A DNA stretch of 41,471 nt. Source: a bacterium BMS3Abin11. GTDB lineage: Bacteria; Pseudomonadota; Gammaproteobacteria; BMS3Bbin11. Each line of letters starts with the position of its first letter. Position 1 is the stretch's first letter. The position numbers were made by a program, and so were the translations under genes. The DNA is taken from the NCBI GenBank assembly GCA_002897635.1, contig BDTD01000008.1:1-41471 (forward strand). Reading direction: 5' to 3'. This document shows, in pieces, positions 17,323 to 34,331 of this stretch. The notes beneath the pieces were generated by a model, which worked only from the letters and a program-made list of their open reading frames with translations, did not search any database and was not told where the DNA came from.

Positions 17323-19209
<1,887 letters not shown>

Positions 19210-19239
19210 TCATAAATAGTACAGGGACAGGACAAGCGG

Positions 19240-19330
19240 CGGCGGGCCAGCTTTCCTACGCCAGTACAGACTGGATCAGGTTCAAAGGGTGTGTCTCAGC
19301 CCCATACTTTGCGGGCACCCCCAGCTGAAA
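19240..19330 (-). promoter_or_regulatory. TPP riboswitch (THI element)
   Basis: Read on the minus strand, the element carries GGGGGTGCCC, GGGGCTGAGA and ACCCTTTGAACCTGATCC, followed by CTGGCGTAGGAAAGCTGG. These are the conserved parts of the thiamine-pyrophosphate aptamer, ending ~40 bp before the thiC start. The stretch between the aptamer and the ATG would carry the expression platform. It should control the whole thiCSG unit. Confidence 0.95.
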
Positions 19331-19435
19331 AGAGGCCACGATAATGGAATGTGCGGGGCGGGTCAAGTGAGGCCTGCAGATTACGTTATTTCTACCCGCA
19401 GGAGCGTCGCTCGGCGCGATTCTTTTTTGGTATTA

Positions 19436-30429: not shown

Positions 30430-31833
30430 TCATTTTATAGCGAATGTTTCACGCGCTCTTTTTATCGCGGCACGAACCTGATTCGGTGCAGTACCACCGA
30501 TATGATCACGCGCATTGACAGAACCTTCCAGTGTCAATACATCAAATACATCCTTATCTATCTCGTCACTGAATGATCTTAATTCATCAAGCGACATGCC
30601 TGACAGGTCATGTCCAGCCTGTTCGGCAGCCTGCACTGCCTTACCAACAATCTCGTGGGCATCGCGGAACGGGATATTTTTTCTGACCAGATAATCGGCA
30701 AGATCGGTGGCCGTAGAAAAGCCCTGCCTGGCGGCCTGGTACATGGCATCTGATTTGACTGTCAGCTGCGGGATCATTCCAGCAAACACACGAACCGCCG
30801 CTGTTACCGTATCCAGACTGTCGAACAGAGGCTCTTTATCTTCCTGATTATCTCGATTGTAGGCCAGAGGTTGACCTTTCATGATCATCAATAGAGAAAC
30901 AAGATTACCAATCACTCGACCACTTTTCCCACGCGTCAGCTCCGCCACATCCGGGTTTTTTTTCTGCGGCATAATGGAGGAACCTGTGCAATAGGTATCG
31001 GAGATGTCAATAAATCCAAACTGCGCTGATGACCAGATTATAAGTTCCTCCGACATGCGCGATAGATGAATCATGATGACTGAAGCGGTAGACATAAATT
31101 CCATCGCAAAGTCACGATCAGAAACGGCATCCAGAGAATTTTCTGCCGGTGCATCGAAACCCAGTAATTCTGCTGTGTAATGACGATCTATCGGGAACGT
31201 CGTCCCGGCCAGTGCTGCAGCACCCAAAGGCATACTATTCATCCGCCTGTGGCAATCAGACAATCGACCCAGATCGCGCCGCAGCATTTCTACCCATGCC
31301 ATCATGTGGTGTCCAAAGGTCACCGGTTGTGCCACCTGCAGGTGTGTGAATCCCGGCATAATGGTATCAGATTCCTTTTCGGCAAGATCCAGCAAGGCTA
31401 TGATCAGCACCTTTATTTCAGCGCTAAGGGATTCTATCTCCTGGCGCAGATAAAGGCGTATATCCGTTGCCACCTGATCATTGCGGGAGCGCCCGGTATG
31501 CAGCTTCTTACCGATATCACCGATATTTTCTGTTAAACGCGCCTCAATATTCATATGCACATCTTCCAGGGTGCGCGACCAGTTAAACGCACCCCGCTCG
31601 ATATCCTCAAGAATCTGATCCAGTCCCTCGATGATGGCTCTGCTTTCTTTATCAGTCAGAACGCCCACCCTGGCCAGCATGCTGGCATGCGCCTTCGAGC
31701 CTTCGATATCCACTTTATACAATCGCTTATCGTAGGATACTGACTGTGTATACTCCTCGACCAGTTGATCCGTAGCCGCAGTAAAACGACCCTTCCAGGG
31801 TTTTTCTTCTTTACCGGCTTTTTTAACTGTCAT
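30430..31833 (-). CDS. argH: Argininosuccinate lyase
   Basis: A 467-residue enzyme of the fumarase/aspartase superfamily that splits argininosuccinate into arginine and fumarate. Signatures: KPWKGRF at the N-terminus, [22 protein letters not shown], the [14 protein letters not shown] active-site segment, and the family signature [12 protein letters not shown]. The length is normal. The position next to algZ/algR is conserved with pseudomonads. Confidence 0.98.
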
Positions 31834-31960
31834 ATTACTTGTTCCTCACTTAATATGTCGCATTATACCGATACAGCAGGTATCAATAAATCCATCGAAT
31901 ATAACTATTTATAGCACCTTATAGCACCTCAAAAACCATTCATCCTTATTTTCTAACCGG

Positions 31961-31990
31961 TAGTCAGACATTTATAGCAAATGTAATAAT
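31961..31990 (+). promoter_or_regulatory. Possible σ70 promoter for RNA unit 1
   Basis: TAGTCA (31961–31966, four of six matches to TTGACA) and TAATAAT (31984–31990) are separated by 17 bp, about 15 bp before the first hairpin of RNA unit 1. Confidence 0.45.
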
Positions 31991-31997
31991 AACGACT

Positions 31998-32107
31998 AAG
32001 TTAAAGGTGAGCATTAGCTCAAACCTGGTCAGCGACCCTCATTAAACTGCACCCCCAATCCAAATGCAGACCAGATTCTAACCCCCTTTAAAAAAGGGGG
32101 TTTTTTT
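31998..32107 (+). ncRNA. Candidate small RNA, unit 1 of a sibling pair
   Basis: This is a non-coding stretch with three predicted hairpins: GAGC-ATTA-GCTC (32009–32020); CTGGTC (32025–32030) pairing with GACCAG (32069–32074), whose large loop exposes ACCCTCAT and CACCCCC; and an intrinsic terminator. A related unit with the same plan lies at 32340–32461, where the stems differ in sequence but still pair. C-rich single-stranded loops commonly base-pair with Shine-Dalgarno regions in trans-acting sRNAs. No ORF is present. It could instead be an attenuated leader for algZ. Confidence 0.6.
32080..32107 (+). terminator. Intrinsic terminator of RNA unit 1
   Basis: CCCCCTTT and AAAGGGGG form an 8-bp stem followed by seven T. 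It faces the + strand, although no protein gene lies upstream on that strand. Confidence 0.85.
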
Positions 32108-32339
32108 AACACCACATAGTTTTAACACCACATAGATTCAAATTTAGTAGACAATGGCGCAAAAGGGAGTATCACTTAAGGATACCTCTATCAATTCATG
32201 AATATGTCAGATTTAATAGGGCGCCCTTAATAGTTCATTCCAGCTTTATTCGCACTGTGAAACGTCCAATATTATCAACTTACCATTCATCTGCCCATTT
32301 CAGCCTGTAATCAGCAAGATTTCTTTAGCTGCTCTGCGG
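32108..32339. other. Spacer between the two RNA units
   Basis: I see no gene here. It contains AACACCACATAG twice near 32108–32132, and at ~32177 a fragment related to the end of the MITE-like element at 10888 (TAAGGATACCTCTATCAATTCATGAA). Confidence 0.45.
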
Positions 32340-32461
32340 GTGATAGATTTATCATCGTTAGTACAAAGCACTAACAGCCTGGTCCAGCAACCCTCATCTG
32401 ATACACCCCCGACTACTGGACTGGATAATTCAGACCCCTTGTTTTCAAGGGGTTTTTTTTT
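32340..32461 (+). ncRNA. Candidate small RNA, unit 2 of a sibling pair
   Basis: It has the same architecture as unit 1: a 5' hairpin GTTAGT/ACTAAC (32357–32375), GTCCAG (32382–32387) pairing with CTGGAC (32416–32421) around a loop with ACCCTCAT and CACCCCC, then a terminator. CCTGGTC and both C-rich motifs align with unit 1 at similar spacing. It ends 16 bp before the longest algZ frame, so it might be the algZ leader with transcription attenuation rather than a free RNA. Confidence 0.58.
32434..32461 (+). terminator. Intrinsic terminator of RNA unit 2
   Basis: CCCCTTG and CAAGGGG form a stem around TTTT, followed by a run of nine T. It lies immediately upstream of the algZ coding region. 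Confidence 0.85.
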
Positions 32462-32524
32462 GCCGCTACTGTTATCATGAACGCTGTAAGCACTGCATTT
32501 CATTCTACAAACCTGGATACTGGA

Positions 32525-33577
32525 ATGAACAAGGAACAAACAACAGCGACAGACAGCACCTCGATTTCACCAGACTACGCTGATTCTGTAACAGGTGTGT
32601 TCTTACTCGCCGCATTTCTCAGTAGCCTGGTAATCATCATTGCTCGCATCGACAACTGGAATACCAGCTATATTACTGACTTTGTGGCATTGCTCGCGGC
32701 CAGCTCCCTGATTGCACTTACTGATGCCCTCGTGCTGAAGATTTTCAACCCCTTCCTCAAATCTCTTTCTACCCGTGCAGGCCTGGCCACAGCCTATTTA
32801 TTGCTGATGGTAACCACTTTCACCATCGGCTATGTTCTTTATGCTACCGTCACCGGGCACTGGCCATTGACCGCACCCAGCAATAGAGTACTGCTTTCAT
32901 TCCTGCAGATATTTGTCTTAGCCACGGTAAACTACGCCATTGTGCTGATGATACTTCTTCATAGAGCAAAAACCAACGATATCAAAAACTCGTTTCAAGC
33001 TGCCAATCTGCAGGTACTACAGTCACGCATACGACCACATTTCATGTTTAATAGCATGAACAGTATTGCCGGCCTGATTAGAAATAACCCTGAAATAGCC
33101 GAACAGGCACTTCAAGATTTGGCTGATCTAATCCGTGTACTGATGGCTGATGCACGTAAGCTTGTGCCACTGATGGCCGAAATCGAGACATCAAAGCAAT
33201 ATCTGAAGATTGAAAAATTACGCCTCGGTGATCGGTTGAGCGTACACTGGCATTTGAAAAGTATTCCCAAGGATTGCTTTGTCCCTTCGCTTATTTTACA
33301 ACCCTTGCTTGAAAATGCCGTTTATCATGGCATAGAACCCAGTTTTGGCGGCGGCGTTATCGATATAGATATGCGTTCCGACATGCGCAGAGTTCAGATA
33401 CTTATACGCAACCCCTTACCGGAAGATGGCGAGCGTAGCCATCGCAAAGGCAACCAGATTGCCATGGATAATATTAAGCAAAGACTAATCCAGCATTTTG
33501 GCGAAGCCGCTTCGCTCAGTTCCGGTCGGCGTAATACTATTCATATAACGAAAATAATCTTTCCCATCGTGGTATAA
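32525..33577 (+). CDS. algZ: LytS/AlgZ-type sensor histidine kinase
   Basis: A ~350-residue inner-membrane kinase with four hydrophobic segments (GVFLLAAFLSSLVIIIA; FVALLAASSLIALTDALVL; AYLLLMVTTFTIGYVLYA; LLSFLQIFVLATVNYAIVLMILL). A His_kinase domain follows with RPHFMFNSMNSI carrying the phospho-acceptor His, then LQPLLENAVYHGIEP (N box). The start at 32525 (MNKEQT) has GGA at good spacing. The frame also allows 32477, 16 bp after a terminator and without a ribosome site. It is 22 bp before its response regulator. AlgZ/FimS–AlgR systems control alginate, type IV pili and small-RNA expression in Pseudomonas. Targets here are unknown. Confidence 0.9.
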   Translation: MNKEQTTATDSTSISPDYADSVTGVFLLAAFLSSLVIIIARIDNWNTSYITDFVALLAASSLIALTDALVLKIFNPFLKSLSTRAGLATAYLLLMVTTFTIGYVLYATVTGHWPLTAPSNRVLLSFLQIFVLATVNYAIVLMILLHRAKTNDIKNSFQAANLQVLQSRIRPHFMFNSMNSIAGLIRNNPEIAEQALQDLADLIRVLMADARKLVPLMAEIETSKQYLKIEKLRLGDRLSVHWHLKSIPKDCFVPSLILQPLLENAVYHGIEPSFGGGVIDIDMRSDMRRVQILIRNPLPEDGERSHRKGNQIAMDNIKQRLIQHFGEAASLSSGRRNTIHITKIIFPIVV

Positions 33578-33599: not shown

Positions 33600-34331
33600 A
33601 TGAAAATTCTAATTGTTGATGATGAAAGCCTCGCCAGACAGCGTATGCGAGACCTTCTTACTGACCTGGGTGAAACAGATATTGTCGGTGAAGCAGCCAA
33701 TGGCAGCGAGGCCATTGAAAAAACCGTAACACTGAAACCTGATCTGTTATTGATGGATATCCGCATGCCGGTAATGGATGGCCTGGAAGCTGCCATGCAT
33801 CTGCAAGGCATAGAAAATCCACCCTTGATTATCTTCACCACGGCTTATGACGAACATGCCCTGGATGCCTTCGAGGTGAATGCCGTCGATTATCTTTTGA
33901 AGCCTATTCGCAAAGAACGACTGGGAGCTGCCCTGCAAAAAACACAACCGGTCAGTACCCGACAGTTAAAAGAGGTCAGCCGTGCCGCTGATTCTAAAGC
34001 CACACGTAGTCATATCAGTGTTCATATGCGGGGCAGGATCACACTCATACCTGTGCATGATATCATCTACTTCATTGCTGACAATAAATATGTCACTGTG
34101 CGCACCGCCACTGAACAGCACCTGATTGAGGAATCACTGGTCAGTCTCGAAGAGGAGTTCTCTGATCGTTTCCTGCGCATTCATCGTGGTTCGCTGGTAA
34201 ATACCGACTATCTACGAGGCATGGAAAAAAATACCGCCGGCCATTGGCGGGTAATAATGAAGGGTATCGATGAAAAACTTGTCGTCAGCCGCAGGCATAC
34301 GCCGCAGGTGAGACGCTGGGTGCGGCGTTAG
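33600..34331 (+). CDS. algR: LytTR response regulator AlgR
   Basis: A 243-residue regulator. The receiver domain has D7/D8, the phospho-acceptor D53 in LLLMDIRMP, and the Lys in VDYLLKPIRK. The C-terminal LytTR DNA-binding domain spans ~135–240 (RITLIPVHDIIYFIADNKYVTV…LRIHRGSLVNTDYLRGME). The ribosome site AGGAG lies just before the ATG. It pairs with the upstream kinase, and the order argH–algZ–algR–hemC is conserved. Confidence 0.95.
   Translation: MKILIVDDESLARQRMRDLLTDLGETDIVGEAANGSEAIEKTVTLKPDLLLMDIRMPVMDGLEAAMHLQGIENPPLIIFTTAYDEHALDAFEVNAVDYLLKPIRKERLGAALQKTQPVSTRQLKEVSRAADSKATRSHISVHMRGRITLIPVHDIIYFIADNKYVTVRTATEQHLIEESLVSLEEEFSDRFLRIHRGSLVNTDYLRGMEKNTAGHWRVIMKGIDEKLVVSRRHTPQVRRWVRR

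Follow-up and report, generated by a model that had tools for sequence, protein, structure and literature searches.

Two sibling putative small RNA genes with a constant C-rich loop beside the algZ-algR operon of the gammaproteobacterium BMS3Abin11 and their probable activation by AlgR

Between argH and an algZ-like histidine kinase gene, the gammaproteobacterium BMS3Abin11 carries two paralogous RNA units whose fold, kinship, upstream boxes, spacing, synteny and wide conservation are shown by computation. These units are best read, with a probability of roughly 0.7, as a pair of free-standing, trans-acting RNAs of about 100 nt that would be transcribed under activation by AlgR, would pair with their targets through a C-rich loop, and were duplicated in this genus. 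The window, that is, the whole 41,471-nt stretch of DNA analysed, is contig 8 of a 2.67-Mb genome that is 99.9 % complete, and its named relatives are uncultured gammaproteobacterial MAGs, one of them labelled Arenicellales. The interval singled out in an earlier, sequence-only reading leaves out the upstream boxes and promoters, which are included in the following list of features.

30430..31833, minus strand: argH (PF00206/PF14698), divergent neighbour upstream of the units
31935..31965, plus strand: tandem AlgR/LytTR-type box 1, ACCATTCATC-N11-ACCGGTAGTC, repeats 21 bp apart
31997..32002, plus strand: presumed -10 of unit 1, TAAGTT (TAGATT in relatives), from sequence and spacing
32005..32107, plus strand: sRNA unit 1, with 5' hairpin, stem, C-rich loop and intrinsic terminator with T7
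32009-32012 and 32017-32020, plus strand: 5' hairpin of unit 1, GAGC/GCTC
32025-32030 and 32069-32074, plus strand: main stem of unit 1, CTGGTC/GACCAG
32035-32042 and 32050-32056, plus strand: loop motifs of unit 1, ACCCTCAT and CACCCCC
32082-32107, plus strand: terminator of unit 1
32282..32312, plus strand: tandem AlgR/LytTR-type box 2, ACCATTCATC-N11-GCCTGTAATC, repeats 21 bp apart, in the register of box 1
32344..32349, plus strand: presumed -10 of unit 2, TAGATT with extended TG, from sequence and spacing
32356..32461, plus strand: sRNA unit 2, with 5' hairpin, 9-bp stem, loop ACCCTCATCTGATACACCCCC and terminator with T9
32357-32362 and 32370-32375, plus strand: 5' hairpin of unit 2, GTTAGT/ACTAAC
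32379-32387 and 32416-32424, plus strand: 9-bp main stem of unit 2, CTGGTCCAG/CTGGACTGG
32390-32397 and 32404-32410, plus strand: loop motifs of unit 2, ACCCTCAT and CACCCCC
32434-32461, plus strand: terminator of unit 2
32470..32478, plus strand: TGTTATCAT, possible extended -10 of algZ, a putative promoter conserved in the genus
32525..33577, plus strand: algZ/fimS-like histidine kinase (PF06580, E 1e-22)
33600..34331, plus strand: algR-like response regulator, REC + LytTR (PF00072 and PF04397)

The existence of two sibling units before algZ, as proposed from the sequence alone, was borne out, with every motif quoted found in its place and the folds as described. Unit 1 folds at -30.3 kcal/mol (z -3.60; 0 of 200 shuffles as good) and unit 2 at -27.0 kcal/mol (z -2.45; 4 of 200), and both unit terminators score in a terminator scan of the region, which yielded five terminator-like sites against 0.4 expected. 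When a covariance model was trained on unit 1 alone, from six congeneric genomes, it matched unit 2 in every member of the genus tested (E 4e-5 to 5e-3); the two units are therefore paralogues. Within the genus, the mean identity of the units is 0.80 and 0.93, compared with 0.35 for the 167-nt spacer between them. Each unit has what a trans-acting sRNA gene should have, namely a predicted (consensus) promoter, a stable fold and its own terminator with a U tail.

That stems of differing sequence still pair had been taken as a sign of real RNA structure, and this argument gains much strength from the wider family. Covariation inside unit 1 is weak at the level of the genus; over 44 distinct members, 97 % of the cells of the main stem are paired, eight of its nine pairs have changed on both sides, and the structure as a whole holds 150 double-sided changed cells versus 56 +/- 5 after shuffling. 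Because the alignments are fitted to the structure, the fairer comparison is a control in which partners are slid by +/-1, and this gives 17 to 43 cells. While the stem covaries, the loop is the most constant part of the RNA, reading ACCCTCAT..CACCCCC in the genus of the window and ACTCTCCTTTGTGCACCCCCACCCCGAAT in most of a second order (that of genome G088), in which the core TGCACCCCCACCCCGAAT is invariant over some 25 genera. The loop is predicted to be single-stranded, in a calculation that covered 41 sequences and in which the value for locus L091 reflects the terminator rather than the loop. The 5' hairpin is not universal, as several members in the second order begin at the main stem. 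The terminator stem has C's on its 5' arm and G's on its 3' arm (columns 106-110/135-139 of alignment A8), an arrangement that is kept in nearly all members across three orders and is unusually constant for a terminator.

Each unit is preceded by a tandem box that matches the published AlgR site CCGTTCGTC and the rhlI site CCGTTCATC of Pseudomonas aeruginosa, and the spacing is that of LytTR regulators, which recognize direct repeats spaced by about 12 bp (PMC4064291). The tandem consensus has only two exact matches in the 2.67-Mb genome, and these are boxes 1 and 2. Both boxes are conserved in the genus, their register is kept in other orders, and a weight matrix built solely from own-genus and literature sites gives the site before the RNA rank one or two within loci of ~3 kb in 44 of 45 members. 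From the end of the box to the predicted -10 there are 31 nt in both units and 31-33 nt in most relatives, and each 5' hairpin begins about 7 nt past its -10; in the second order the promoter is clear, running box, 9 nt, TTGTTG, 17 nt, TATGTT. AlgR-site direct repeats with LytTR spacing lie upstream of a predicted promoter in each case, and the algR product, one of two LytTR proteins encoded in the genome, is presumed to activate both units. One further tandem box, weaker than these two and close to csrA (G000:C11:41942), was rejected as an AlgR site and is taken as a mobile inverted repeat. It turns up again in G001 and G006 with different surroundings, as part of a common TAGCAGAAAAATACCATTCATCAAG repeat that is inverted in G000, where a near-perfect inverted repeat TAGCAGAAAAATACCATTCATCAAG..CTTGATGAATGGTATTTTTCTGCTA lies upstream of csrA (L036, around 1500); since the same 25-bp end recurs elsewhere in relatives, this is probably a small mobile element with an AlgR-like end.

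To the right of the units come algZ, algR, then an opposite-strand thioredoxin-like gene and hemC. The algZ reading frame opens at 32477, and translation probably starts at its second ATG, at 32525, the GGAATGARCAAG context of which is kept in all six species. The TGTTATCAT site, which sits between the unit 2 terminator and algZ, reads TGYTATYAT in most relatives. A second algZ/algR-like pair, which includes the other LytTR protein, is located at G000:C22:99348-101119; its kinase is 36 % identical, and a search upstream of that kinase gene found neither a box nor an sRNA unit. Elsewhere in the window, a TPP riboswitch scores above its gathering score at 19236-19332 on the minus strand, upstream of the minus-strand ORF 17323-19200.

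Comparison with relatives showed the family to be conserved in the genus, in the sister genus and in further orders, in the same arrangement of divergent argH, tandem AlgR box, promoter, C-rich loop on a covarying stem, terminator and algZ. The sister genus has a single box and a single unit in the same place. In the second order, the third covariance model places the RNA in 53 of 57 genomes and 25 of 27 genera, and in a third order a single genome, G330, carries it (second model), a match regarded as genuine because it lies upstream of algZ. Inspection of the regions upstream of the nearest AlgZ relatives revealed the RNA in G088, G315 and G212 as well. All 30 new loci have the tandem box in front of the RNA, 29 have argH beside it (the remaining locus being cut at a contig edge), and a tblastn search of each locus detected algZ in 28. 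In the other orders, the stretch between the single unit and algZ is variable and often hundreds of nt long. A class-wide search with the third model gave matches at E <= 0.01 in 10 of 369 genomes, eight of which were known carriers. Covariance-model matches at E 0.01-0.1 outside the carrier orders proved to be terminators without the loop and were discarded; about 80 other gammaproteobacterial algZ upstream regions showed no box with a strong terminator. The AlgZ proteins of the carriers form one clade (support 100/100), inside which there is one apparent loss, in G116/G232, and the simplest history is a single origin with the carrier AlgZ lineage followed by duplication in the genus of the window. 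Two consecutive algZ-like kinase genes lie downstream of the sRNA in G007, of the sister genus (L082 1500-3600), and similar doubling occurs in G116, G232, G088 and G315. Genome G005 has two different argH-sRNA-sRNA-algZ loci, on contigs C162 and C164, one of them nearly identical to that of G001, and is for this reason likely a mixed bin.

In the mechanism favoured here, each RNA of about 100 nt would be an independent gene, one of a paralogous pair, turned on when activated AlgR binds the tandem direct repeats immediately before a weak sigma-70 promoter. The transcript, which would end in a long U tail at its intrinsic terminator, would display a constant single-stranded loop (ACYCTC..ACCCCC) on the covarying stem, and this loop would most likely pair with short G-rich stretches of mRNA, e.g. 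Shine-Dalgarno regions, by which AlgZR control would be extended to the post-transcriptional level. That AlgZR in this lineage acts mainly via the linked sRNA, much as GacSA acts through the Rsm RNAs, with the RNA as the chief direct output of AlgR, a partner so constrained that the 18-nt loop stayed fixed over ~25 genera and the output RNA doubled in this genus, is a tentative idea and rather doubtful.

The nature of the loop's partner is the point at which the main rival arises. The C-rich loop might instead be recognized by a protein, which the RNA would sequester or guide much as CsrB/RsmZ do, but through another motif, and this reading is favoured by a long loop core held invariant over some 25 genera on a freely changing stem; the core TGCACCCCCACCCCGAAT is longer than a short seed requires, which counts against base pairing. 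The target search also weighs on this side, since the complement of the 12-nt core is not enriched in 57 genomes (18 non-self versus 25 control matches), and the algZ leader and the 5' region of argH pair with the loop no better than shuffles do. One strong value in these pairing tests was set aside as unit 1's own antisense. Because no target was found, a protein partner keeps some standing; it is nonetheless improbable, as each RNA offers a single binding loop, no known C-rich-loop-binding sponge of such shape was found, and neither loop contains the GGA motif that marks CsrA sponges, GGA occurring in unit 2 only in a stem region.

The sequence-only reading had also offered a double attenuator for algZ. 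In a cis-acting attenuator or leader of this kind, transcription from the unit promoters toward algZ would be cut at the two terminators, and the RNAs would be by-products that set algZ expression, a form of AlgR autoregulation. In favour of this, some 15 nt separate the end of the unit 2 terminator from the algZ ORF, and wherever algZ is visible in a carrier it lies downstream of the RNA; against it, unit 1 lies ~370 nt from algZ and has a box and a terminator to itself, a predicted promoter stands before each unit, and the gap between RNA and algZ reaches hundreds of nt in many carriers of other orders. No alternative antiterminator pairing of the kind that marks a riboswitch or attenuator was found: the loop has no G-rich partner, and its probability of pairing with the terminator is 0.000 in all members scored. 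A loop that is the most constant part of the RNA, together with a possible promoter for algZ itself at TGTTATCAT after unit 2, further disfavours attenuation, which is judged unlikely, whereas the paralogy, a tandem AlgR-type box per unit and conserved synteny give good support to the other half of that early proposal, duplicated sRNAs with a link to AlgZR. Finally, the weak covariation of unit 1 within the genus alone might suggest ordinary intergenic hairpins that are merely alike, but box, spacing, loop and synteny are all conserved in three orders, with E-values down to 4e-12, and chance resemblance is exceedingly improbable.

The reading as AlgR-activated, trans-acting RNAs sets the family beside several known systems. 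None of the 4227 models of Rfam 15 reaches its gathering threshold at the units. The near-misses, anti-hemB and Yfr10, fall below threshold; anti-hemB (RF02837, Burkholderia RNA 7) is alike in having a short stem and C-rich loop followed by a terminator, but recurs only weakly (E 0.005 to 0.8) and at 18-23 bits versus a gathering score of 49.5, and membership was rejected. The literature searched, which covers few subscription journals, contained no report of an argH-algZ sRNA. As far as Rfam and that literature reach, the RNA family is new, though of a known regulatory kind. To our knowledge, nearly everything known of AlgZR comes from Pseudomonas. The AlgZ proteins considered here belong to a distinct lineage, in which an sRNA that the regulator very probably switches on lies next to the operon; this suggests a cascade from two-component system to sRNA, conserved across orders of bacteria that have been little studied. 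The covariance model, fixed genomic address and predicted regulator make the family ready for direct test.

Among two-component systems with sRNA outputs, the LisRK system of Listeria has, as far as we know, a regulator, LisR, that is not LytTR-type. Its LhrC1-5 RNAs are likewise siblings under a two-component system and have C-rich (UCCC) loops that pair with Shine-Dalgarno sequences, with a responsive element at about -53 to -75 and no known consensus site for LisR (PMC4132741); they differ in carrying three UCCC sites per RNA and in their unrelated sequence. In Pseudomonas, transcription of RsmY and RsmZ rises with AlgR, an effect that may be indirect (PMC4064291), and these RNAs share with the present ones a link between sRNA transcription and AlgR but act as CsrA/RsmA sponges, carry GGA motifs and are encoded at other loci. 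In regulatory logic, the aspect compared, the likeness extends to Clostridium perfringens, in which VirR, also LytTR-type, binds two imperfect direct repeats upstream of VR-RNA (vrr), VirT and VirU (PMC4877802), and thereby controls part of its regulon via RNA; the phylum and the RNAs are different, and in the family described here the RNA adjoins the operon of its presumed regulator.
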